From Opitutales bacterium (GTDB lineage: Bacteria; Verrucomicrobiota; Verrucomicrobiia; Opitutales; Oceanipulchritudinaceae), in NCBI GenBank assembly GCA_020831485.1, contig JAFIGG010000001.1, positions 1 through 64,000 on the forward strand: DNA of 64,000 nucleotides. Reading direction: 5' to 3'. Made by a program: the position numbers and the translations under genes. The notes under the pieces were generated by a model. The model was given only the letters and a program-made list of their open reading frames with translations. It did no database searches and was not told the DNA's origin. This document shows, one piece after another, positions 14,522 to 28,244 of this stretch (the first letter of the stretch is position 1; every line of letters starts with the position of its first letter).

Positions 14522-16438
14522 TCAGCCCACCAGGATTCTGGGATAGCGCCGGGAGGTCAGAATGCTTGCCCGCAGGCGGCCGACCTCAACCTTCCAGGTA
14601 TCTGCTTGCTTTTCGACTCGACTGGCCGGCGGATCTTTCTGGTCCTGACTGCGGGCGCAGAGGACGGTCAGGATTTCGTGATCCAGTGCCTTCGGCGTTC
14701 CGACCTCAATGCAGGGGAAGTGACCCACCTTGCGCGGCACCTCCAGCTCAGACAGGCGCACTTCCGGCTCAGTATGGGCGAAGACCTGACCGTGCAGGCG
14801 GGCCTTCGGGCGGCGAATGGTGAAACGGTTGTTCTCCTGCAGTTCGAACTCAGCGGCTCCATCCCGGTTTTCCGGGAAGAAGCGCAGATCCACCTGTTGC
14901 GGACGGTAGCGCAGGCGAACCTGATCAAAGACCACAATGATATCCGGTTTGAAGTAGATAAGGCTGCGAACCACTTTAAAGATGTGGTAGTTGTCGATTC
15001 GGTACGCTGCGGTGGCGTCACTGGTCCACCAGACTTCGGCACCCTGATCCTGGTAATGGACTGTATTGGCAAAGGACAAACCATCGTTGGTGCCTTCTTC
15101 GCCCTGGTGGTATTGCTGCCCCTTGCGTCCAACCAGGACAGAATTGTGCCCCTCCGTCAGTCGCAGCAAAAACCCGGGATCGCGGTAATGGTAAGCGGCA
15201 CCAAAATGATCCGTCAGCAGGCGCTCGCCATGGATCTTAAATAGAAAATGGTTACGGTCGGCATGCTCATGTGCCGACGGCCCTCCGCCGCGAAAAGCGA
15301 GCACCGCATCCTCCGGTTCCCAGCCCGTGCGGCAAAAGATCCATTCCAGCCGGGTGCGCAGGTTCATCAGCGATGGAGGAGGCGCTTTACTTGGGAGGTC
15401 CGGATCATACCAGAGCATATCACGGAAGGACCGGGGCTGTGAGGCCTTTTCCGCGAGGTACTGAGCCACTGGATTATTTGTGTGTTTGGAAATCCATCCC
15501 GGCACACAGGGAAACACATTGGCCCCGGAGTCGCCGAAGTTGACCGGCTCCGGCGAGCCATCCGGGCGCAGGCCTGCCTGCATCCCGAGCAGGAACCGGA
15601 CAGTTCCGTCGAGGTTGCTTTTGGCCACCCAGTCAATGTCGCCCACGGCGCGCATGTGGGCGTCGAAAAAGTTCAACAGGGTGCGCAAAGTGTAGTTCGT
15701 GTAGCCGACTCCCTCAAAGAAGCTGCCATCTTCCTTGAACAGGGCGAGCACCCGAAAACTGCTGGAGATTGCCTTCTCAAGCCACTGCTCAGCGCGGTCA
15801 TCGTGCTCAGACAGTGCCAGGGCCGCGATGCCCAGACTCGCCGTCGGCACAGCCCGCAGGTTATTGCCCCCCAGAATCATTGGCCAGCGACTCATGTCGA
15901 GCCCGGCCAGGTGCGGATAGCCATCCGCGACCCGCCAGCCAATCACTTCGTCTGGGTTGTCCATGCCATGGATTGTCCGGTGCAGGGGAACACATGCTTT
16001 CTCCGCAATGTAATCCAGCACCTTTCGGTTCAGATCCTCGCTCCAGTCATCGCCCAGGACTTCACGTAAGAAGAGCAGGGTATCAGAGATCAGAGAAGCA
16101 CGCTGAACGCCAATCACATAGGGTCCATCCATCAAAAAGTCCCATTCCGGCAGCCTCAGTAAAACGTCGATGCATGTCAGGATTGCTTCCTTCAGGTCAT
16201 CTCTGGGTTCGACGATTTGTACTATTCCGGCTTCCCGCAAGCGGCTGCAGCCTTCCCTCACCCCCACATGCAGGTCTTCGCTTTCGCGCAAGTCCTCAAA
16301 CTCCGCAATCAGCTCATCAGCAGGCCGCGCCTCCCAATCGGCAAAAACCGACCCAAGCAATGGACTTCGAGCGCTTCTGCGGATGCGTTCAACCTCTTTC
16401 GGTTCAAAAAAAAGGGCGGCTTCGGCTTTAATATTCAT
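14522..16438 (-). CDS. Heparinase II/III-like polysaccharide lyase family protein
   Basis: 638 residues from ATG 16438. The frame stays open further 5', but that part runs into an intergenic repeat, so I reject it. Residues up to about 350 are an alpha-helical (alpha/alpha toroid) region; the C-terminal beta-sandwich has the heparinase II/III core AFRGGGPSAHEHADRNHF, where the HEHAD histidines are expected at the active site and metal site, then LLTDHFGAAYHYRDPG and TEGHNSVLVGRKGQ. No signal peptide is present, so it would act on imported oligosaccharides, like oligo-lyases of PL12/15/17/21. Substrate unclear. First gene of the coupled block, followed by the SIS isomerase. Confidence 0.85.
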   Translation of the reverse strand: MNIKAEAALFFEPKEVERIRRSARSPLLGSVFADWEARPADELIAEFEDLRESEDLHVGVREGCSRLREAGIVQIVEPRDDLKEAILTCIDVLLRLPEWDFLMDGPYVIGVQRASLISDTLLFLREVLGDDWSEDLNRKVLDYIAEKACVPLHRTIHGMDNPDEVIGWRVADGYPHLAGLDMSRWPMILGGNNLRAVPTASLGIAALALSEHDDRAEQWLEKAISSSFRVLALFKEDGSFFEGVGYTNYTLRTLLNFFDAHMRAVGDIDWVAKSNLDGTVRFLLGMQAGLRPDGSPEPVNFGDSGANVFPCVPGWISKHTNNPVAQYLAEKASQPRSFRDMLWYDPDLPSKAPPPSLMNLRTRLEWIFCRTGWEPEDAVLAFRGGGPSAHEHADRNHFLFKIHGERLLTDHFGAAYHYRDPGFLLRLTEGHNSVLVGRKGQQYHQGEEGTNDGLSFANTVHYQDQGAEVWWTSDATAAYRIDNYHIFKVVRSLIYFKPDIIVVFDQVRLRYRPQQVDLRFFPENRDGAAEFELQENNRFTIRRPKARLHGQVFAHTEPEVRLSELEVPRKVGHFPCIEVGTPKALDHEILTVLCARSQDQKDPPASRVEKQADTWKVEVGRLRASILTSRRYPRILVG

Positions 16439-16550
16439 GAGGCAGGCTGCTGGACAAAGAGGGTTTAGCGGTCGCAATTCCAGCCTCTTTTTACAATCGT
16501 CAGTCAAGCATGAGGATAGCCGACGGGGTTTACGGTAAATTTTTAGGCAG

Positions 16551-16647
16551 GGCCGAGGCCGGCCCTCCAATCGGGCTCTACGTTGGAGGGCCCCGCTTTG
16601 TCGGGGCTCGATCCGGGACACAGCCGGCACGGAGGCCGGCCCTCCAA
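16551..16647. repeat. Dispersed inverted-repeat element (family B), copy 1
   Basis: Contains GGCCCTCCAA and TTGGAGGGCC, perfect 10-bp arms 12 bases apart, then CCCCG/CGGGG around a six-base loop, then CTCGATCC and a second GAGGCCGGCCCTCCAA. Copy 2 near 61089 has the same order and orientation. It lies between the rhamnose mutarotase stop and the heparinase-like start. Confidence 0.85.
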
Positions 16648-16655
16648 CACCTCCC

Positions 16656-16970
16656 CTACTCCATATGAAACACCTCGTTCAGCCCCGTTGCGACGGGGCT
16701 GTTGTCGGGGTTTGATGGCATGACGTCGGCCATGTGGGCCCACCACTTTCTGCAGATGTCGGTGTTGGCGACTTCGGCCCAGCGGGCTTCATCCTCAATT
16801 TCGAGGCAGGCGAAGAGCTGGTTGGTTTCCGGGTGGTGGAAGATGGAATAATTGTGTCCACCATGGGCCTTGAGGGTCTCCTCGAGTTCCTTCCAGATGG
16901 GCTGGTGGCGGCGCGTGTATTCGTCCACCTTGTCGGGGCGGACACTCATAACAAATGCTTTGCGTATCAT
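16656..16970 (-). CDS. rhaM: L-rhamnose mutarotase
   Basis: 104 residues from ATG 16970, exactly the usual RhaM length; the preceding in-frame ATG is dismissed. Dimeric alpha/beta-barrel family interconverting alpha- and beta-L-rhamnose. Hallmarks seen: [35 protein letters not shown] and [15 protein letters not shown] with its conserved Tyr, Asp, His and double Trp. Divergent from the aldose isomerase gene with 135 bases between them that must hold both promoters. Downstream, a 217-base interval with a dispersed repeat separates it from the lyase operon, so co-transcription is possible but not certain. Confidence 0.93.
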
Positions 16971-17105
16971 GGCATTCACTTTGGGGCAAAAGCACAGCAT
17001 TTACAATCCAGGAAAACCGTTCCCGCACGCCACACTTCATGCAGATTGAACCATGCGGGTAGAAATGCCATTGCGCTGAGTGCGGAAGCCCTTAGAAAGT
17101 TTCGC

Positions 17106-18542
17106 ATGTCGACTAAAAAAGCTACTCCCCTTAAAGTTGGATTGTTTGGCATCGGACTGGATACCTATTGGGACCAATTCGATGGATTGAAAGAGCGCCT
17201 GCTGGGCTATCAGGCCCGGGTCAAGGCGGGCATTGAAGAGAACGGAGCCGAGGTCGTGGATCTGGGCCTTATCGACAACCCGCTGAAATCCAGTGCGGCT
17301 GCGTCCACCTTCCGGCGCGAGGAAGTGGAGCTCATTTTCCTTTTCATTACGACCTACGCGCTGTCGTCGACGGTTCTTCCAATTGTGCAAAAGGCCAATG
17401 TGCCGGTGATTGTGTTGAACCTGCAGCCGGTTGCCCAGCTGGACTATGAAAAGTTCAATGCCCTCGGCGACCGCGGCAAGATGACCGGAGCCTGGCTGGA
17501 GAATTGCCAAGCCTGCTGCGCGCCGGAAATCGCCAGCGTATTCAACCGCTGCGGCATTGATTTTCATCTGGTCACGGGCTTTCTCGACGACAAAGTTGCC
17601 TGGGCTGAAATCCGCGACTGGATCCGCGCGGCCAATGTGAAGCAGGCCATGTCACAGAACCGGGTCGGCGTGCTGGGCCACTACTACTGCGGCATGCTCG
17701 ATGTTTACAGCGACATGACCCAGCAGACGGCGGTCTTCGGCAACCATTTTGAACTGCTTGAAATGTGTGAACTGGTCGACGCCCGCGAGGCGGCCAGCGA
17801 AGAGCAGATTAAGGCGAAGATCGCTGAATTCAGCGATGCCTTTGAGGTTTCCCCGGACTGTGAAAGCAGTGAAATCGAACGCGCCGCCCGAACCTCCGTG
17901 GCCCTCGACGCGCTGGTGCGCAACAATCAGCTCGGTTCGCTCGCCTATTATTACGAAGGCAGTTCCGGCAATGCCTACGAAAACATCGTTACCTCCGTCA
18001 TCGCCGGCAACACCCTGCTCACCGGCCGCAATGTTCCCGTCGCCGGCGAATGCGAAATCAAGAACGTGCAGGCCATGAAGATCATGGACCTGCTTGGCTG
18101 TGGCGGATCCTTTTCCGAACTCTACCTCGGTGATTTCAAGGACGACGTTGTCTACCTCGGCCACGACGGCCCCGCCCACTTTGCCATCGCCCAGGGTAAA
18201 GTCGGTCTGGTTCCCCTCCCTGTCTACCACGGTAAACCCGGCAAGGGCCTGTCGATCCAGATGACCGTCGCCCACGGCCCCGCGACCCTGCTGTCCGTTG
18301 TCCAGAAAGGCGACGGCAGCCTCAACTTCCTCATCGCCGAGGCCGAATCCGTCGAAGGCCCCATCCTACAAATCGGCAACACCAATTCCCGCTACAAGTT
18401 CAACATCAGCGCCCGCGACTTCCTCCAGCAATGGTCCGAAGCCGGCCCCGCCCACCACTGCGCCATCGGCACCGGCCACCAGGCTGGGGTCCTTAAGAAG
18501 CTGGCCAAGCTACTCAAGATCGACTGCGTGCAGGTGGGGTAA
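17106..18542 (+). CDS. L-arabinose/L-fucose isomerase-family protein
   Basis: 478 residues from ATG 17106; the frame is open far upstream but that part overlaps the mutarotase. The sequence fits the AraA/FucI superfamily branch common in Bacteroidota and Planctomycetota: YYYEGSSGNAYE, VPVAGECEIKNVQAMKIMDLLGCGGSFSELY, YLGHDGPAH and IGNTNSRYKF, with Glu and His residues that are candidates for the Mn-binding site (E in AGECE and SFSE, H in GHDG, H in GPAHH). It should interconvert an aldose and ketose; beside rhamnose mutarotase, L-rhamnose, L-fucose or L-arabinose are all candidates. It is followed by repeats, not by another gene of the same strand. Confidence 0.88.
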   Translation: MSTKKATPLKVGLFGIGLDTYWDQFDGLKERLLGYQARVKAGIEENGAEVVDLGLIDNPLKSSAAASTFRREEVELIFLFITTYALSSTVLPIVQKANVPVIVLNLQPVAQLDYEKFNALGDRGKMTGAWLENCQACCAPEIASVFNRCGIDFHLVTGFLDDKVAWAEIRDWIRAANVKQAMSQNRVGVLGHYYCGMLDVYSDMTQQTAVFGNHFELLEMCELVDAREAASEEQIKAKIAEFSDAFEVSPDCESSEIERAARTSVALDALVRNNQLGSLAYYYEGSSGNAYENIVTSVIAGNTLLTGRNVPVAGECEIKNVQAMKIMDLLGCGGSFSELYLGDFKDDVVYLGHDGPAHFAIAQGKVGLVPLPVYHGKPGKGLSIQMTVAHGPATLLSVVQKGDGSLNFLIAEAESVEGPILQIGNTNSRYKFNISARDFLQQWSEAGPAHHCAIGTGHQAGVLKKLAKLLKIDCVQVG

Positions 18543-18570
18543 GGTAGATGCTTGGAATGGTGGAGTGGTG

Positions 18571-18594
18571 GGCTGAGGGGCTGAGGGGCTGAGG
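18571..18594. repeat. Short tandem repeat, GGCTGAGG x3
   Basis: Three perfect 8-bp units, preceded by a GGAATGGTGGAGTGGTGG stretch. Lies 28 bases after the isomerase stop. Similar in style to the GCTGTGG tandem at 35978 and, on the other strand, the TTCCATCA/CCACCG stretch at 36261. Confidence 0.8.
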
Positions 18595-18628
18595 GGGGAC
18601 CTGACCGTGTTTGATCTGACAAGCCAAA

Positions 18629-18715
18629 GGTGGGGAGGTTTCGCCGAAACCGCCGGTGATTAGTCTGTGGTTCCCGCCTTCGGCCAGCGGCCGTCTCGGC
18701 GAGACGGGCCCTACC
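18629..18715. repeat. Composite palindromic repeat, copy 1 (inverted)
   Basis: Two palindromes (around AGGTTTCGCCGAAACC and around GTCTCGGCGAGAC) joined by GGTGATTAGTCTGTGG and CCCGCCTTCGGCCAGCGG. The reverse complement of this arrangement is found at 20065-20150 and 21940-22021. It lies on the other side of the DUF3095 gene from copy 2, so the gene is bracketed by an inverted pair. Confidence 0.85.
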
Positions 18716-18719
18716 TCGT

Positions 18720-18812
18720 CACGGCGAAGTGAAACGGAGACGGGCCTTGCCACGGCGTAGTGCAACGAAGACGGGCCTTGCCACGGCGTAGTGCAACGAA
18801 GACGGGCCCTAC
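18720..18812. repeat. Three tandem 31-bp repeats
   Basis: Units at 18720-18750, 18751-18781 and 18782-18812 start with CACGGCG(A/T)AGTG and end with AGACGGGCC(T/C)T; units 2 and 3 differ only near the last bases. The unit end (ACGGGCCCTAC) repeats the end of the adjacent palindromic element, which suggests the array grew from it. Located between that element and the DUF3095 stop. Confidence 0.9.
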
Positions 18813-18823
18813 CAACCGCCACC

Positions 18824-19978
18824 TCAGAAAGCTGAAGAACTTATTTTTCGCTTCAATTCAACTGCGGCTGCGGCGTAGCCGCCTGCTTCGGCATCGACGA
18901 AGTGAAAGTGCTGGCCCTGGCCAAGGCCGTCGACGAAGCAGGTCATGAGGGCGGTGTCGGACCCGTGCAGGCCGTAGTGGATTTCACCGTCTGCTGAGAA
19001 TTCATCCAGAGCTCGGCGCACGGCTTCGACCTGATCCGGGTGGCAGTCGAGGGTCATGCGCAAAGTGCCGTCAAACTTGCGAAAGTCGTTGTGGCTGGAA
19101 AGGGACTGCGCATAGGCCCTGGGGCTGAAAAAGAATACGGGCTTCCAATACCGGAAAGCCCAGACAGCGATCAGGATCTCCATGAAGCGCAGGAAAAATG
19201 GACCGCAAAAACTGCTGGCATGGTAGCGTTTTTCGTCGCGATAGCATTCGCCTACAGTCTTGTAGGCCATGTGACCCCAATCGATGGGATTGTGTTTATC
19301 GATCCCCTCTGGAAAGACCTCCCTCAAGGTTGCTAACAGGCGATCGAGGGTGTCCTTGCGTTGGTTGCGCGACAACGCAATCAGGGAAACAATGCGCCCA
19401 CGTTTGGCCCTAACGGCCTGCCAGCGACAGGAAAGTCCGCCCAGATTTGCGTTCGATTTGGATCCAGGCGTTTCGGTGCAGGCGTATTCCGCTGACCTAT
19501 TTTTGACCCAGTCTTCGGCCGCCGTGAAGCCGCTCCCTTGAAACACGGCAAAGCACAACTCTTTCGTCACCTGGTATTTGCCTAACTTGACATCATGCCC
19601 GGCCGCATGCAACTGCGCAACGGGCACCGCCCCCACCCTCAGGCCAAGGCCAAACTGTTCGGAGGCCAACTGGCGCAAAGCCATCAGCTGCTCCAGCACG
19701 GCAGAAAAGTGCTCCGGCGGCAAAAGCATTAATGCGCCATCACCGCCAAAAACAAACGGAAAGTCCACCCGGTTTATTGCGTTTTTCGCTACGACAATAG
19801 AAGCCGCCCCAACTGTATTCACATCCCGGTATCGTCCTGCTGAAATCGCTTTCGTCGAGCCGACTACATCGGTAACAACCAGACTCCAATCCTCTGGAAC
19901 GGATTGGTAGTGAGCATCCTCAACCAACTCTTCAAAAACCTCAAAGGCTTCCAATTCGTGATAGAAACTAAGAGACAT
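18824..19978 (-). CDS. DUF3095 protein, class III nucleotide-cyclase-like
   Basis: 384 residues matching the DUF3095 pattern: PEDWSLVVTDVVGSTKAISAGRYRDVN and FPFVFGGDGALMLLPPEH. The two acidic motifs DVVGST (D37) and GGDGA (D84) correspond in spacing and surroundings to the two metal-binding Asp of class III adenylate/guanylate cyclases, so a cyclase-type fold is likely; activity is not proven. Residues about 255-285 (FFLRFMEILIAVWAFRYWKPVFFF) could be a membrane-associated hydrophobic stretch. No signal peptide. The gene stands alone, bracketed by inverted copies of a composite palindromic repeat, which hints that gene plus repeats might have moved or been remodelled together. Confidence 0.82.
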   Translation of the reverse strand: MSLSFYHELEAFEVFEELVEDAHYQSVPEDWSLVVTDVVGSTKAISAGRYRDVNTVGAASIVVAKNAINRVDFPFVFGGDGALMLLPPEHFSAVLEQLMALRQLASEQFGLGLRVGAVPVAQLHAAGHDVKLGKYQVTKELCFAVFQGSGFTAAEDWVKNRSAEYACTETPGSKSNANLGGLSCRWQAVRAKRGRIVSLIALSRNQRKDTLDRLLATLREVFPEGIDKHNPIDWGHMAYKTVGECYRDEKRYHASSFCGPFFLRFMEILIAVWAFRYWKPVFFFSPRAYAQSLSSHNDFRKFDGTLRMTLDCHPDQVEAVRRALDEFSADGEIHYGLHGSDTALMTCFVDGLGQGQHFHFVDAEAGGYAAAAVELKRKISSSAF

Positions 19979-19996
19979 TCAGCAAGCCTTTGACCA

Positions 19997-20149
19997 TCCT
20001 ATCCATCCCAAGCAAAACATGCCGGAGGCTAAAACATCATTTGTGAGAAAAGCAATGCCGAAAGTGGTAGGGCAGTCTCGCCGAGACGGCCGCTGGCCGA
20101 AGGCGGGTATCACTGACTAATCCGCGGCGGTTTCGGCGAAACCGCCCTA
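19997..20149. repeat. Composite palindromic repeat, copy 2
   Basis: From TCCTATCCATCCC beside the DUF3095 start to the second palindrome GGCGGTTTC-GGC-GAAACCGCC-CTA. Elements in order: CCTATCCATCCC, AAACATGCCG, a variable middle, palindrome 1 (GTCTC-GCC-GAGAC), GGCCGCTGGCCGAAGGCGGG, CACTGACTAATC, palindrome 2. Copy 3 at 21866 has the same order. The final CTA (20147-20149) is the TAG stop of the beta-helix gene, while the first end supplies the AGGA-like ribosome-binding region of the DUF3095 gene on the minus strand. Confidence 0.88.
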
Positions 20150-21853
20150 CCATTTTTCGGGGTCGATGCTACGCTGCAACTGATCCAGATAGAGTGACTG
20201 CGGCTCCAAGGTCTCGCCTTTGCCGACGCCTTCGACGTGGTCAATCGGATCGGTTTGGGGAAGGTTGCCAAGGGTGTAGACGTTATAGACCTCGCCGCTG
20301 GTGCCGATTGCATAGCCATAGCGGGCTTGTTGGGTGCGGATGATGTCCGTGTATTTACTCCCCTTGCCGCGGATGTTCCAGAAGACGCTGTGGGCGGCGC
20401 TGATGTTGTGACGGGGGATGCTGCCATAGGGGCGGTAACGGGCGTCAAAGAAGCTGTTTTCGACGGTGCTTTGATCGACGAGGTTTGAATGACTGAAGCG
20501 CATGTGGTGATCGCTGCCCGAACTGTCGGCAGTGCCTGAAGCTGCAATGCCGCTTTGCCGGTCAAGGCTGCGGTGGATGACATTTCCGGTGGTGGCCATG
20601 TGGGAAAAGACGAAGCCGTGCCGGTTGTAGGCAGCCAGCGACTCGATGATCAAATTATCTGCCGAATCCTGAATCCGGTAGGTGTAGCCATTTCCGCCCC
20701 AACCGCCGTACTGGACGCGCTGCATCTCGACATTGCTCAAGGTGATGAAGCGACTGTGGTGGAGGAAAATTCCATTGCTCAAGGTGTGAACCGCCAGACT
20801 GTTGCTTTCCGGTCGAAACGATGAAACACGGTCAACCCAGCAATTTTCCGCACCATCGAAGGCAATAAGGAAGGCGTGGTGCACATCGTAGGCGGCTTTG
20901 TCGGGATCGGTATAATCCGGATTCTCCCATCCCTCACCGGGGTGTTGCACGTTGCCGATCGAAAAGTGCTCCAGGCCGACTTCCATCACGGCGTCGACCG
21001 CCAGATGGACGCGGGCATTGTCGCGGGTTTTCATGGCGTAGCGAATCGGCACATCCACCTCCAGCCGCCGAGCCTCTTCGTCGATCGCCACCACGCGCCG
21101 CGGGTAAGCCAATCCGGACATCAGCTGGGTATGGCCACTCCAGTCGGGTTCATTGTGCTCGGCAACCCATTCCTCGGTGGTGTCGGTGCGCAGCACCACC
21201 CGATCACCAACAGAAAAGGCTGCCGTGTCGACGACCGGAATCGACCGCGTCGGCCCCATGAGGTCCCGGCGAATCGGCACGGTCGGCTCGCGATCCACAA
21301 AAAAGCTCTCCTGCTCAGGACCTTCCACCCGAATCACTTCCCGCGAACGCATCTGATAAGATGTATTCACAATGAAAGTCTGATCCCTGCCAGCACCACG
21401 CAGCACCACTCCTGAATCCCGAATAGTCAGAGCTGCCCGCTGCCCTTCCTGTGGAGCGACCCGATAGGTTCCAGCCGGAAGGTAGATCACCCCACCCCCC
21501 GCCGAAGCCGCAGCATCAATCGCCGCTTGAATGGCAGTGGTGCTGTCCTCTTCACCGCCCACATCGGCTCGAAAGGGAGCATCCGTGACTTGAAAGACCG
21601 GTCCCTCAATAGAAGGAATCATCCGCAATCCTCCCCGATAACCTGAACGGGAAAAATCCTGAATGATTTTATCCTCATAAAAGTTCAGTTCCTCACCTGG
21701 CGGTGTCCAGTCCATCGGATAGAGCTCACTGCGCCAACCTTCTGCTTCGGATCCAGTCCCTCCTTCCCCGCTGACCAAAGCCGGCATCGCCGCGAACATC
21801 AATCCACAGAGCAAATACCAGCGCGTTTCCAACTTCACAGGCCTTTTTGACAT
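20147..21853 (-). CDS. Secreted right-handed beta-helix protein, pectate-lyase superfamily
   Basis: 568 residues from ATG 21853; a further upstream start would add 12 residues ahead of the leader. Signal peptide RWYLLCGLMFAAMPALVSG. After about residue 95, DSTTAIQAAIDAAASAGGGVIYLPAGTYRV is the typical opening of the Pectate_lyase_3 beta-helix, and later rungs (NSLAVHTLSNGIFLHHSRFITLSNVEMQR; NLIIESLAAYNRHGFVFSH) continue the solenoid. Probable extracellular or periplasmic glycan hydrolase or lyase; catalytic residues cannot be assigned safely. Both ends touch repeats: its stop codon is part of copy 2, and copy 3 lies immediately upstream, carrying the GGGATGGATAGGA sequence that precedes the start. 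It is divergent from the AraC gene, so the two may share control. Confidence 0.85.
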   Translation of the reverse strand: MSKRPVKLETRWYLLCGLMFAAMPALVSGEGGTGSEAEGWRSELYPMDWTPPGEELNFYEDKIIQDFSRSGYRGGLRMIPSIEGPVFQVTDAPFRADVGGEEDSTTAIQAAIDAAASAGGGVIYLPAGTYRVAPQEGQRAALTIRDSGVVLRGAGRDQTFIVNTSYQMRSREVIRVEGPEQESFFVDREPTVPIRRDLMGPTRSIPVVDTAAFSVGDRVVLRTDTTEEWVAEHNEPDWSGHTQLMSGLAYPRRVVAIDEEARRLEVDVPIRYAMKTRDNARVHLAVDAVMEVGLEHFSIGNVQHPGEGWENPDYTDPDKAAYDVHHAFLIAFDGAENCWVDRVSSFRPESNSLAVHTLSNGIFLHHSRFITLSNVEMQRVQYGGWGGNGYTYRIQDSADNLIIESLAAYNRHGFVFSHMATTGNVIHRSLDRQSGIAASGTADSSGSDHHMRFSHSNLVDQSTVENSFFDARYRPYGSIPRHNISAAHSVFWNIRGKGSKYTDIIRTQQARYGYAIGTSGEVYNVYTLGNLPQTDPIDHVEGVGKGETLEPQSLYLDQLQRSIDPEKW

Positions 21854-21865
21854 TAGACCCACTCG

Positions 21866-22021
21866 TCCTATCCATCCCGAGCGAAACATGCCGAAGTCTA
21901 GAGCAACAAGTATGGGAGATGCAATTCCGAAAGGGACCGGTGGGGCCGTCTCGCCGAGACAGCCGCTGGCCGAAGACGGGATCCACTGACTAATCGCGGC
22001 GCCCTCGGCGAGAGCGCCCTA
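21866..22021. repeat. Composite palindromic repeat, copy 3
   Basis: Same order and orientation as copy 2: TCCTATCCATCCC, GAAACATGCCGAAG, variable middle, palindrome 1 (GTCTC-GCC-GAGAC), GCCGCTGGCCGAAGACGGG, CACTGACTAATC and palindrome 2 (GGCGCCCTC-GGC-GAGAGCGCC, one mismatch, then CTA). The whole intergenic stretch from 21854 to 22178 therefore consists of this element and then the inverted repeat described next; no gene is seen there. Confidence 0.88.
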
Positions 22022-22104
22022 CCCATGATCGAATATTAGGTAGTCCCGAGGCCCATCCGCGGCTTGCACGGAAATTCGATAAATTACGGGTGCAAATTCA
22101 ACTA

Positions 22105-22153
22105 GAATATATGCAATTACAACCATATCTCATGAATGGAATTGCATATATTC
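22105..22153. promoter_or_regulatory. Perfect 14-bp inverted repeat upstream of the AraC gene
   Basis: GAATATATGCAATT at 22105-22118 and its exact complement AATTGCATATATTC at 22140-22153, 21 bases apart (centres 35 bases apart). The right arm ends 25 bases before the AraC ATG. TGCAAATT at 22091 is a third, related word. Being AT-rich and in the divergent promoter zone of the beta-helix and AraC genes, it could be an operator pair for a looping dimer, or an RNA hairpin in the leader. Confidence 0.75.
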
Positions 22154-22178
22154 AAACCCTCAGCATACTACCTGAACA

Positions 22179-23087
22179 ATGCTCCGATACTCACGCTCTG
22201 GACACGTTACCCGCAATTTCCTCACCAACTCAATCCCCACCAAACGCCTCAACTGGGAATTCTACGCAGTCATCAAAGGCAAGTGTGCACCGACTCACAG
22301 CCTTGGAGAAAAGCCCCAACTGAGAGAACGAACGCTGTGGATCATGTCGCCTGCAACCAACTACGGCTGGACGGGTGAAGATGCAGGCTGGGAGCGCATT
22401 CTGTTTCACTTCGCCTTCATCCCCGACACGCTGAGGTCGCAGATCGATCCGAACGGACGTCTGGAAGTTCCATTGTCCGATGAGGATGTGGAGACCCTCA
22501 GCCGGATCGAAAAGGAGGTTCAGGAACACATGTTGAATCCAAATCAACTGAGCAATCTGATCTTCCACCGCGCATTGATTAACTTGTCATTGATTGCATT
22601 GCGGGACCGCCCGATGGAAACCATCGCAACACTGGAAGACGTCGCCTACCAGCGCGTAGAAGATGCGATTGGCTGGTATCTTGAAAACATGCGCAAGGCA
22701 CCCACGATTGAAACCGTGGCTTCGGCAGTCAACATATCCACGAGCCACCTTCGGCGACACTTTCATCAGATCAAGCACTGCAGCCCAAACGATTACTTTC
22801 AAAGGCTGCGCATGGAGCGTGCCTGCAAGCTACTCAACCAGACAACCGACACTCTCGACGAAATCGCCCGCCGCTGTGGCTTTCCCAATTCAAGTGATTT
22901 CTGCCGCGCTTTTAAGAGAACCTTCGCCACAACACCCCATACCTGGAGGCGTCGGATAACCGCAAAAAACCCCTTCATCAATGGAATCAAGATTTCCAAT
23001 TTTGACCCTGGAGACCGTCGTCAAGACGGACACTTCACATCGAAATCATCCCCTCGAAGGCAACGACAAGCGGGCACTAAAAACTGA
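22179..23087 (+). CDS. AraC-family transcriptional regulator
   Basis: 302 residues. The N-terminal part (about 1-150) is a cupin-like sensing region (WEFYAVIKGKC, RTLWIMSPATNYGW); residues about 170-265 form the two helix-turn-helix AraC domain (APTIETVASAVNISTSHLRRHFHQI, then TDTLDEIARRCGFPNSSDFCRAFKRTF). It has a long basic C-terminal tail. It probably senses a sugar and controls the adjacent rhamnogalacturonan genes: its stop is 43 bases before the lyase start, and the beta-helix gene is divergent. The strong inverted repeat before it may be its own or another regulator's site. Confidence 0.9.
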   Translation: MLRYSRSGHVTRNFLTNSIPTKRLNWEFYAVIKGKCAPTHSLGEKPQLRERTLWIMSPATNYGWTGEDAGWERILFHFAFIPDTLRSQIDPNGRLEVPLSDEDVETLSRIEKEVQEHMLNPNQLSNLIFHRALINLSLIALRDRPMETIATLEDVAYQRVEDAIGWYLENMRKAPTIETVASAVNISTSHLRRHFHQIKHCSPNDYFQRLRMERACKLLNQTTDTLDEIARRCGFPNSSDFCRAFKRTFATTPHTWRRRITAKNPFINGIKISNFDPGDRRQDGHFTSKSSPRRQRQAGTKN

Positions 23088-23130
23088 ATCTATTAGCTGC
23101 CGGTATAACCGCCCTCTCTTTCGTTGCCTG

Positions 23131-26100
23131 ATGTTCGGCGCAATGGCTTGGGCGACGCTCGTCGTCTCGGCAGCTGGAGTTAAGTCCGGTTTCTCACTTG
23201 AACCGATGGGGACACAGGTATCGGTCGAGGGCCCCTTCGATCGCGCATCAACCATCGACAGAAGCCCTGAATGGAAACTAAGCATTCAAGACCGCGGGGG
23301 CTCGCTCGAAACTGCGGCTGCTGTTGATGTGGTCTTTGACGAGCCAGTCGACCTTGCTAAAGTTGAAGCAATCCAATTCCAATTATACGTGCCGGAAGAG
23401 CTGACGGGTTACTTTTTCGGTCGCAATGATGTCCGCCTGGTGGTCAATGGCGACAATCCCCGATGGCAAAAGCCCGCAATTGAAGCCGGATGGAATACGA
23501 TCCATTGGGAACTGAAAAACCTCTACACGTTCCCGTCAATGAAGTCTCTGCGCATTCACCTCGGACACTTCATGCCGGGCTTTGACAAGGGAGCGGTCCA
23601 CCTCAGCGAATTTGAATTGAAGCCCATGGAGAAGCTCGAAGCAAAAAACCGGGAAGCACTCGAAGCCAGCGCTGCAAACGCGAACCTGGCATGGACCCGA
23701 CGGTTTCAGGCAATCGAACAACTTCAGCGGATCGGAACTATGGATTCCATACAGCCTCTCCTTGAAGCCATAGCCGACGGTGCCGCAAGGGAGGGCTTCA
23801 ACCCGCGGGCAATCGATGAAAACGACGCCTATATCAACCCGCCTAGCGAGGGTTCTGAAGCTGTCCGCAGTGCAGCCCGGCAAGCATTGACAGCGATTTC
23901 GGGTCGTGTTGAGCCGGATGAGCTGGCCACACTGCATGCCATATTGGAAACAGCACTGCGTGCCGAGGATCCGCGCAAGCGCCTGGCAGTCGTTCACGTT
24001 GTTGCAGGTCTGAAGATTGAGCAGCAACGCGGTTGGATCCAGAATGTATTCGAGCAAGCCTTGTTGGACGACCTCTACTATGTTCGCGAACAAGCACTCT
24101 CCGGTCTTGCCCGGCTCGACCGGAGCCCTGCGGAGGTGGCAGCCCACCTGGCGCAAGAATTGAGAAATGCCCCGAATGACGCCCACCGACAAGCGGTTTT
24201 AAGGTGCCTGAGCGAAATGGGTCCCTCTGCGCGCAGGGCCCTTCCCGAAACCCTGATAGTGCTCCGGGATACTTCCGCAGACACCCGACTCCGAGCCTCG
24301 GCGCTGCGGGCGGTCTGGTGGACGGACGAAAGCGTACTGGCCCCCGAAGACTGGGTGATCGCCCTCGACCTGCAAGCGGGTGAAATTCACCGCCACTTAC
24401 TGAACCGCGCCATGGACCGGCTTGAGCAGGCAGGCCCGACAGCCGTTCCGGCTTTGCGCCGAACACTGCAATCCAACAACCCACAGGCCCGCAGTCGGGC
24501 AGCGGTGCTCCTGCGCAAGCTGGGGCCGGATGGAGCCGATGCTCTTGCAAAGCTTGGCCCCGATGAACCCTGGTATGTGCGCGCAGCAGCAGGCCACAGC
24601 TCTGCTCCACCTCGGCCAGTGGTCGGCGATGACGCGCTGCGGGTCGAACGACAGGGCTCTGAATTGAGGCTGAGTAACGGTTTGATCGAGCTTGTTTTCG
24701 ACACCGAAGGACAAGACCCCGGCCCAAAGGATGTCCGCTTCCCCGGTGGCGAAAACCTTTTGGACTCTGAATGGCTCTACAAGGTGTTTTCGTTTCGATA
24801 CACTCAAGCCCGAAACATCATTGAGCGCGTCTGGTTCCAGAAAATCCGCGGCTCTGCATTGAATAAAAACCTCGAATGGGAAATGGGCGACGTCGACGAC
24901 GATCATGCCGAAGTTATTTTTCGCTATCCCGGCGGCGGCGACTATCCATTGGAATGGCAACTGCATTACGTGCTACGCCGTGGAGACAGTGGATTCTACG
25001 TCTATTTCACCGCCCGTAACACAACCGGACGTTTACTCGAAGGCAGCACTGCAACCAACAGCGAAGACTCGACCGGCATGATTCGCCTGCTGGTGGCGCC
25101 GACCTGGGGCATGTTCGACACCGTCGTGCTGCATGATCAACTCAAAGGACCGGTGCGATTCACCGATGAGCCCAACTTCTCGGGCTACCCTGACATCTAT
25201 CAGGCTTCTTACCGGATGCCCGATGGCGAGGTGGATGCCAAACATGAGTGGACCAATTACGATCTCGAAAGCTCCGTCTTCGGTATGACCGGAGATGAGG
25301 GCGGCGTCTGGCTGATACTCCCAAGCATGGAGTTTTTCGGAGGTGCCATGCCAAATATCCGCAACACCAGCGTCAACCACAACATGTTTGTGATGAACCT
25401 TGAAGACAAATACTACAATCCGGTAGCCCCCAGGATAACAGCGGATTGGGAAAAAATATATGGCCCAATGTTCCTCTACTTTAATCAGGGAGACAACACG
25501 GAGGCCATGTGGGAAGACGCCAAACATCAAGCAGCGATTGAGGAGAAAAGATGGCCTTATGAATGGATCAATCGCAAGGATTTCCATATGCGCGGAGAGG
25601 TCAAAGGTCAGGTTCAAATCAGCGATGGAACCGATCCGGAAGGTGCGTGGGTAATCCTCGCCCAGCCCCACGAGGAAATCCCCGCAGGTATCGAATTCGG
25701 CGAGTGGTATCGGGATGTCGGAAAGTATCACTACTCCACCAGGGTCGCAGAAGATGGCAGCTTTCATATACCTGATGTTTACGCCGACACCTACAGCCTC
25801 TTTGTGTGGAAAGAAGGTGTTTATGGCGAATTTCGCAAAGATGAGCTGACCGTAACCGCAGGCAACGTCCTGGAGCTGCAGAACTGCATACTCGAGCCAC
25901 GCTCACACGGCCGCCTTGTCTGGCAACTGGGAACGGCGGACCGAACCGTACGCGAATACTATAATGGGAATAATTTTCACCAATGGGACACCTATCTGCG
26001 CTACCGGGATGCCTTCCCCTTCGACGTCAACTTCGACATTGGCCGCAGCGATCCAGCACGAGACTGGAACTACCTGCAACCAGCGAGCGTGCAGGGAGAG

Positions 26101-26457
26101 AATATCCCGACAACATGGACAATTGCCTTCGACCTAAAAGAACGACCCTCCGGCGAAATGGTCTTAACGATTGTCTGCGGAGGCCGCAGCGCGCACCTGG
26201 ACCTGCGCATGAACGGGCAACTGATTGGCGAATTGATTACCGGCAATATCGGTCTGCAACACATTCGGACCGCCGCCTATGGAGAATTGCTGGTACGCGA
26301 ATTTTCTTTCGATGCCGCCATTCTCAAACAGGGCCGTAATCAACTGAGCCTGAGTTTTGACCGGGAAGCCGACATCGGAACGGATGCCCACAACCACCCC
26401 GGCAACTGGCCTCGCTATATCGCCTACGATTTCATACGCTTGGAAGCAAAACAATGA
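23131..26457 (+). CDS. HEAT-repeat and rhamnogalacturonan lyase (PL4-like) fusion protein
   Basis: About 1108 residues. I use ATG 23131 because earlier in-frame starts overlap the AraC gene by over 80 bases; the hydrophobic MFGAMAWATLVVSAAG would then be a leader with little positive charge, so the start is uncertain. Parts: a beta-sandwich-like N-terminal module (about 20-160), HEAT/armadillo-type helical repeats (about 170-480; IQPLLEAIADGA, VREQALSGLARLDR, PALRRTLQSNNPQARSRAAVLLRKLG), then a PL4-like lyase barrel (LSNGLIELVFD, FYVYFTARN, MIRLLVAP, HMRGEVKG) with following FnIII-like and C-terminal carbohydrate-binding-like domains (LVWQLGTADRTVREYYNGNNFHQWDTYLRY, as in rhamnogalacturonan lyases). 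It should cleave the Rha-GalA backbone of pectin by beta-elimination. Its TGA overlaps the next ATG. Confidence 0.85.
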   Translation: MFGAMAWATLVVSAAGVKSGFSLEPMGTQVSVEGPFDRASTIDRSPEWKLSIQDRGGSLETAAAVDVVFDEPVDLAKVEAIQFQLYVPEELTGYFFGRNDVRLVVNGDNPRWQKPAIEAGWNTIHWELKNLYTFPSMKSLRIHLGHFMPGFDKGAVHLSEFELKPMEKLEAKNREALEASAANANLAWTRRFQAIEQLQRIGTMDSIQPLLEAIADGAAREGFNPRAIDENDAYINPPSEGSEAVRSAARQALTAISGRVEPDELATLHAILETALRAEDPRKRLAVVHVVAGLKIEQQRGWIQNVFEQALLDDLYYVREQALSGLARLDRSPAEVAAHLAQELRNAPNDAHRQAVLRCLSEMGPSARRALPETLIVLRDTSADTRLRASALRAVWWTDESVLAPEDWVIALDLQAGEIHRHLLNRAMDRLEQAGPTAVPALRRTLQSNNPQARSRAAVLLRKLGPDGADALAKLGPDEPWYVRAAAGHSSAPPRPVVGDDALRVERQGSELRLSNGLIELVFDTEGQDPGPKDVRFPGGENLLDSEWLYKVFSFRYTQARNIIERVWFQKIRGSALNKNLEWEMGDVDDDHAEVIFRYPGGGDYPLEWQLHYVLRRGDSGFYVYFTARNTTGRLLEGSTATNSEDSTGMIRLLVAPTWGMFDTVVLHDQLKGPVRFTDEPNFSGYPDIYQASYRMPDGEVDAKHEWTNYDLESSVFGMTGDEGGVWLILPSMEFFGGAMPNIRNTSVNHNMFVMNLEDKYYNPVAPRITADWEKIYGPMFLYFNQGDNTEAMWEDAKHQAAIEEKRWPYEWINRKDFHMRGEVKGQVQISDGTDPEGAWVILAQPHEEIPAGIEFGEWYRDVGKYHYSTRVAEDGSFHIPDVYADTYSLFVWKEGVYGEFRKDELTVTAGNVLELQNCILEPRSHGRLVWQLGTADRTVREYYNGNNFHQWDTYLRYRDAFPFDVNFDIGRSDPARDWNYLQPASVQGENIPTTWTIAFDLKERPSGEMVLTIVCGGRSAHLDLRMNGQLIGELITGNIGLQHIRTAAYGELLVREFSFDAAILKQGRNQLSLSFDREADIGTDAHNHPGNWPRYIAYDFIRLEAKQ

Positions 26458-28244
26458 ATACCCCGTCCCCAACAACGCGAATCATCGCTCTTAACCCGAC
26501 AGATGCCGAAGACTTTGAGCAGGCAGCCGAACGGGCAAAATCCATCGGCGCCAGCCATGTGCTGATCACCGAAGACCTGCCGAAATCTTTCTGGCAGATG
26601 GAACAAAGCAACGATCCCTACCCAGCCTGGTTCATTCACCAGCCGGGACTTTTAAAAATCTTTCCACCGAAGCTGCTGCAGGCCTATGTCGATCTCGACT
26701 ATGCCGAACGCATCGCTCAAATCCTTGAAGATCGATGTACAGTGCTGCAACGCCTGGGGATGAAGGCATACTACTTCTGCAACGAGCCACAGGTGCTGCC
26801 GGAGCCCTTCTTCCGCAGCCATCCCCACCTGCGCGGACCACGCGTCGATCAAAGCAACCGCTCCCGCCAGCCGCATTTTTCACCCTGTACGGACCGACCT
26901 GAGGTCCTGCAGATGTATAGGGAGTCGATTCAAGCATTGCTCAAGCGCTGCCCGGAAGTGGAACTCTTTTCCTTTGTGACAACCGATTCCGGTGCCGGCT
27001 TCTGCTGGTCACCCGCGCTCTACCCGGGCCGCAACGGTCCGGCTCATTGCGAGCATAGAGACATGAGCGAGCGGGTTGCAGGCTTCCTCATTAATTTGCA
27101 AACGGCCGCGCAGGAACGGGGCCGGACGATAGAAATCAATATCGTTGAAATCCCTGCCCGACGCTGGATGCGGCCAACCTTTTTAGACGCCAAAGCCATC
27201 GCCCGAAAACTCCCTCCAGGCTTATCGGTCAACAATCATGAAGGCCCCGAAGGCAAGGCTTTTATGAACGGTACTGGGATGGAAAACCTGTGGAGCAATT
27301 GTTTCTATCCCGTGCTCGGAATTCCACGTCCCATGGCCTTTTTGCGCACGCTCGTTCAAGCAACCAAACACCCGGGCCGACGCAAGGTTCTTGCCTTCAA
27401 CGATGCAGTCAACAATGAGCTGAATTTCACCATTGCCGAGGCCTTTGACCGCCTGACTCCGCGAGACCGGATTGCACAATTACAGCTGCTGCGGGAAGTT
27501 GCGCTCCAACAGGTTGGTGAAGCGCAGGCCGACAAGCTACTCGAACTGTGGCACATTGTTGACGAGGTCGAAGTGCTGCTCGAGCCGCTCGACTTCGGCC
27601 CAGTTCTCCGTATGGGCTGTATTCTCGCCCGCTGGATCAACCGTCCCTTCGTGCCTTTCCCGGAAGAGCTGTCAGAGGCTGACAGTTACTATTGGCGAAA
27701 CTTCCTGTTCCAGGCAAAGGGCGACGAACAGGCATTGAACCTGATCGACATCCAGGCCATGCGCATGTTCGAGGGCTGGGGCGCACGCATGCTGGTCGAA
27801 CAGACGGTGGAACAAATCTTCCTCCGCCTTAGGGAAGCCCTGGCCCTCGCCGCTGAGACGGGCCAAAAAGAACTGGAGCGACGGTTAAAGATCCTTCGCT
27901 GCCTGTTGATCAACACGCGCAATGCCGTTTCCTACCAAGCCCAATTGGAGCGCGTCAAAAACGCTGGCATCCTGCCCGATCCGAACCCGGTGCTCGGTAC
28001 CCGCAGCAGTTGGGACCGAGACGACCTCCTGCGCATTGCCCGCGAAGAGATCGACAATTGCGTTGAGCTGATAGACTTGCTGAAAACCGGCGAAGGCCGC
28101 GCCCTCGACACGGCGCAGCACTCCGACGAAGAGGCCATCACTCAATTAGGACCAGACCTCGTGCAGCAGCTACAGCACAAAATCACGACCATGAATGCGC
28201 ACTGGTGCGATTATGGACGCTTGCTCACCGAGCCCAATCCATAG
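26454..28244 (+). CDS. Protein of unknown family, possibly a TIM-barrel glycosidase
   Basis: 596 residues with no signal peptide and no membrane helix, so cytoplasmic. The ATG overlaps the rhamnogalacturonan lyase stop (ATGA), so it is translationally coupled to it. Residues about 25-340 alternate hydrophobic beta segments with helices, in the manner of a glycoside-hydrolase TIM barrel (SHVLITED, MKAYYFCNEPQV, EVELFSFVTTDSGAGFCWSP, IEINIVEIPARRW). Acidic residues in CNEP and TTDSG are candidates for catalysis, and the layout recalls GH20/GH67/GH115-type barrels, but I cannot place it in a family. The C-terminal part (about 350-590) is helical. Its linkage implies a role on oligosaccharides released by the lyase. 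Confidence 0.6.
   Translation: MNTPSPTTRIIALNPTDAEDFEQAAERAKSIGASHVLITEDLPKSFWQMEQSNDPYPAWFIHQPGLLKIFPPKLLQAYVDLDYAERIAQILEDRCTVLQRLGMKAYYFCNEPQVLPEPFFRSHPHLRGPRVDQSNRSRQPHFSPCTDRPEVLQMYRESIQALLKRCPEVELFSFVTTDSGAGFCWSPALYPGRNGPAHCEHRDMSERVAGFLINLQTAAQERGRTIEINIVEIPARRWMRPTFLDAKAIARKLPPGLSVNNHEGPEGKAFMNGTGMENLWSNCFYPVLGIPRPMAFLRTLVQATKHPGRRKVLAFNDAVNNELNFTIAEAFDRLTPRDRIAQLQLLREVALQQVGEAQADKLLELWHIVDEVEVLLEPLDFGPVLRMGCILARWINRPFVPFPEELSEADSYYWRNFLFQAKGDEQALNLIDIQAMRMFEGWGARMLVEQTVEQIFLRLREALALAAETGQKELERRLKILRCLLINTRNAVSYQAQLERVKNAGILPDPNPVLGTRSSWDRDDLLRIAREEIDNCVELIDLLKTGEGRALDTAQHSDEEAITQLGPDLVQQLQHKITTMNAHWCDYGRLLTEPNP

Follow-up and report, generated by a model that had tools for sequence, protein, structure and literature searches.

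The two similar segments that flank a beta-helix gene in the window, the stretch of 64,000 nucleotides analysed here, are made of two parts with different histories, an 86-base core and a 68-base leader. The core is very probably a miniature element of the REPIN type, a head-to-head dimer of GTAG-tagged REPs, and the leader a separate local sequence beside it. The preliminary description had reported two composite copies at these places, and they do align end to end: comparison of 19997-20151 with 21866-22023 gives a local score of 160, against a best of 37 among about 300 random window pairs. The gapped local alignment starts at TCCTATCC (19997 and 21866) and ends at CCCTACC (20151 and 22023) with nothing beyond, and it divides into the leader, which is gapless and 79% identical, and the core, which is about 85% identical. 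Chance is excluded for the core because its matches on other contigs reach E-values down to 6e-32, and for the leader because its match has an E-value of 1.6e-10 within the genome.

The locus reads in direct order REPIN-leader-gene A-REPIN-leader-gene B. REPIN 1 (20066-20151, plus strand) is bounded by GGTAGGG and CCCTACC and consists of a left REP hairpin (20071-20091), a spacer and a right REP hairpin (20126-20146). REPIN 2 (21939-22023, plus strand) lies in the same orientation and is more diverged, with compensatory changes in its stems. Leader 1 (19997-20064, minus strand) is situated between REPIN 1 and gene B, and leader 2 (21866-21933, minus strand) between REPIN 2 and gene A. Gene A (20147-21853, minus strand) encodes a 568-residue pectate-lyase-like beta-helix protein (PF12708, E 1.2e-10) whose nearest named relatives come from Verrucomicrobiales and Opitutales MAGs, and gene B (18824-19978, minus strand), which encodes a DUF3095 protein (PF11294, E 5e-111), is found between leader 1 and REPIN 3 (18629-18715, minus strand). 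The third, inverted copy of the preliminary description is REPIN 3; it is present, but as the 86-base core only, with no leader. REPIN 3 adjoins a tandem array of 2.9 units of the 31-base sequence CACGGCGTAGTGCAACGAAGACGGGCCTTGC (18720-18808), and in about one third of the full REPIN copies the same unit also abuts the GGTAGGG (left) end; it may therefore be a second repeat associated with the REPIN. Gene B lies between two inverted REPIN copies (18626-20154) that form 85-base arms with 88% complementarity, and is present in only three of 55 related genomes, its own genome counted; it may have been acquired or moved together with these inverted copies. On the other side of the locus, an AraC-type regulator gene (22179-23087) has a palindrome a short distance upstream, at 22105-22153 (GAATATATGCAATTACAACCAT and ATGAATGGAATTGCATATATTC, 86% complementary), which is possibly an operator. 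The wider region at 14522-28244 encodes L-rhamnose mutarotase, isomerase-like, heparinase-like and polysaccharide-lyase-4-type domains together with the AraC regulator, which suggests a gene cluster for rhamnogalacturonan use.

In the genome from which the window comes (3.86 Mb in 142 contigs), a search found 20 near-full-length copies of the core at identities of at least 83%, six at 76-79% and about 20 partial ones; REPIN 3 is among these, and some copies are the left half only. When the copies are aligned, nearly all full ones have GGTAGGG or GGTGGGG as their first bases and CCCTACC or CCCCACC as their last, and carry a GTAG or GTGG tetranucleotide outside each hairpin. The spacer GCTGGCCGAAGGCGGGAACCACTGACTAATC is conserved among the full copies too, so the similarity extends beyond the palindromes. 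The flanks of the copies are unrelated, other repeats excepted, and the ends and the spacer are what the aligned copies have in common. Structurally, the core is a pair of inverted hairpins of the form GGTRGGG...CCCTACC, each with 9 pairs and a 3-base loop. Among 15 copies, 95.2% of the stem cells are paired and eight double changes are seen, versus 1.7 in shuffles, and this covariation signal is abolished by sliding the hairpin partners. As single-stranded DNA, the core folds far better than shuffled sequences (z about -4). The target-site duplications that had been proposed as something to look for were not found at the core copies, with a 2-base match at one of 19 against a shuffled mean of 1.7. 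None of the relatives looked at carries the locus, so that they offered no empty site for comparison, and the surroundings of the examined relatives of gene A (45-59% identical) lack all the genes that neighbour it in the window.

The core has the structure that defines both a REPIN (PMC3116915) and a GTAG head-to-head dimer (PMC3733652). GTAG repeats, their head-to-head dimers and their supply of TAG stops have been published for Opitutus terrae (Verrucomicrobia), in which they are abundant, and for other bacteria (PMC3733652). The element described here is like these dimers in its GTAG/GTGG tag, the placement of the tags outside, the short hairpins, the spacer of 20-100 bases and the provision of a TAG stop to neighbouring genes; O. 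terrae belongs to the phylum, Verrucomicrobiota, of which the host bacterium is probably a member, and the comparison covers these described features. The REPINs of Pseudomonas fluorescens SBW25 (PMC3116915) are similar in being dispersed inverted REP pairs that fold with their spacer into a hairpin, in a genome with genes for REP-associated tyrosine transposases (RAYTs). They differ in number, since the copy number here is modest compared with that of classic REPINs, with tens of copies rather than hundreds, and in that no RAYT or other transposase gene flanked by copies of the 86-base element was found in the 142-contig assembly. As far as could be checked, the family is new in sequence, and it is an ordinary example of a kind already known.

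RAYT genes, which the preliminary description had suggested looking for elsewhere in the genome, are present. The Pfam Y1_Tnp profile identifies four candidate genes, and with the NCBIfam model for REP-associated tyrosine transposases (cut-off 80 bits) the gene on contig C16 scores 89, the one on C81 79.8 and the one on C5 more weakly. The C16 gene is flanked by two direct 130-base GGTAGGG...CCCTACC elements (2609-3411 in L081) and together with them is a complete REPtron. These 130-base elements, directly linked to a RAYT gene, are longer relatives of the core and have its termini and two hairpins with similar loops. They differ from it in their longer spacer and in their stems, and the genome holds about seven full copies. 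The C81 gene is flanked by repeats ending in GTAGCCC and GGGCTAC, and the RAYTs on C81 and C5 are of other types with other flanking repeats. Four further genomes of the order, each with Y1_Tnp genes, contain hairpin arms of the same style. We infer that the core has been mobilised by a transposase: a REP-associated tyrosine transposase would recognise the hairpins with their GTAG or GTGG in single-stranded DNA and would copy or move the hairpin pair without making a target-site duplication. The earlier proposal of a non-autonomous mobile element is supported for the core, which is dispersed, of REP type and apparently non-autonomous, but the element is the 86-base REPIN and not the 155-base composite.

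REPIN 1 also forms the end of gene A. The outer end of REPIN 1 contains the TAG stop of gene A (20147-20149), which lies at +2 of the element, and the hairpin starts directly after this stop. Elsewhere in the genome, three more frames end at the TAG of the element, namely an M20-peptidase-like gene, a gene resembling ArsR and a further long frame; these family names were given by eye, and the M20-peptidase-like gene is the clear one. The termini of GTAG repeats often supply a TAG stop to flanking ORFs (PMC3733652). The homologues of gene A share a conserved end at which some stop and others run on into extra domains, and because they reach this same end, the core domain of gene A is complete. 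The hairpin that follows the stop supplied by REPIN 1 probably affects the stability or translation of the gene A mRNA. In E. coli, REPs at most 15 bases from a stop codon can reduce translation (PMC12306157), and by analogy REPIN 1 may lower the translation of gene A. It had been suggested that the element carries both start and stop signals, and of these the stop is confirmed, since the TAG of gene A comes from the GTAG, but the supposed start signal is in the leader, outside the element.

What is unusual at this locus is only the duplication of the leader, a small unexplained residue. Since it was found only at the two window sites and was absent from the other genomes of the order that were searched, the leader does not belong to the dispersed element. 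Within its own genome it gave only short chance matches besides these two sites (up to E 10), among 273 genomes of the order there was nothing but one 18-base match, and none of the other core copies, REPIN 3 included, has it. The composite is therefore not dispersed as a whole: the core has other copies, whereas the leader, with two sites in the genome and no full counterpart in any of the other genomes searched, is local. The AGGA (minus sense) that had been taken for a ribosome-binding site is present, but it lies 12 bases before the ATG of gene A and 18 before that of gene B; these distances, and a nearer AAAGG at gene B, make such a role weak. Several other identities for the leader were considered and rejected. 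As coding sequence, it has nine of its 14 mismatches at one codon position, yet one copy has a stop in that frame. Rfam has no match in the region, and neither leader contains a sigma-70-type promoter match.

The leader was probably copied through a local event involving the REPINs, by recombination or by aberrant transposition. The REPINs begin 1 and 5 bases after the AAAG of the leader, and since they thus lie only 1-5 bases from one and the same position of the leader, their independent insertion is unlikely. This proximity argues against the leaders being a common promoter or translation-start region whose similarity selection has maintained, with REPINs inserted beside each independently, as do the lack of a similar leader elsewhere in the genome and the missing sigma-70-type match. 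Selection would be consistent with the distribution of the leader mismatches, which number 2 in the 28 gene-nearest bases versus 12 in the other 40 (Fisher p 0.03) and hint at constraint on the start region, and with the absence of derived changes common to REPINs 1 and 2; on balance we regard this explanation as quite improbable. It is also unlikely that the 155-base composite moved as one unit, for example if a transposition had paired one REP end with a site past the opposite end and so carried the leader along. Such a move would account for the fact that at both sites the similarity breaks off precisely where the REPIN ends on the outside and at an identical base of the leader, and for the leader having diverged (14/68) to a similar degree as the REPIN pair (13/86), but the leader is missing from every other copy and its gene-proximal boundary has, by eye, no REP feature. 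The direct order of the locus could likewise come from tandem duplication of a REPIN-leader-gene unit followed by replacement of one gene by an unrelated one; we consider this very unlikely, as genes A and B are from unrelated families and no remnant of a duplicated gene was seen beside either leader.

The leader is best explained by a duplication soon after REPIN insertion, or by a conversion between the REPINs that reached into the leader. A single local event with its anchor in the REPINs would have set a copy of one gene's leader before the other gene, and the simplest route would be recombination or gene conversion between the direct REPIN copies that flank gene A; to conversion as the route we would assign an even chance. 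Aberrant transposition carrying the leader along is possible. The 13 differences between REPINs 1 and 2 are made up of four and nine departures from the consensus, respectively. Common descent as a pair is not evident for the two REPINs, because they have no derived change in common and several copies on other contigs resemble REPIN 1 more closely than REPIN 2 does.

These results add a REPIN family to a phylum in which such elements have received little study, together with a genome where several RAYT-REP systems coexist, and they provide another instance of REPIN-type repeats shaping gene ends. The duplicated leader is a concrete case for the question of whether REPINs move adjacent regulatory DNA. 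It is in our estimate improbable that the REPINs here, by offering portable homology or aberrant ends for transposition, copy the start region of a neighbouring gene before another gene; if true, it would mean that stop and start signals alike are spread by a miniature repeat.
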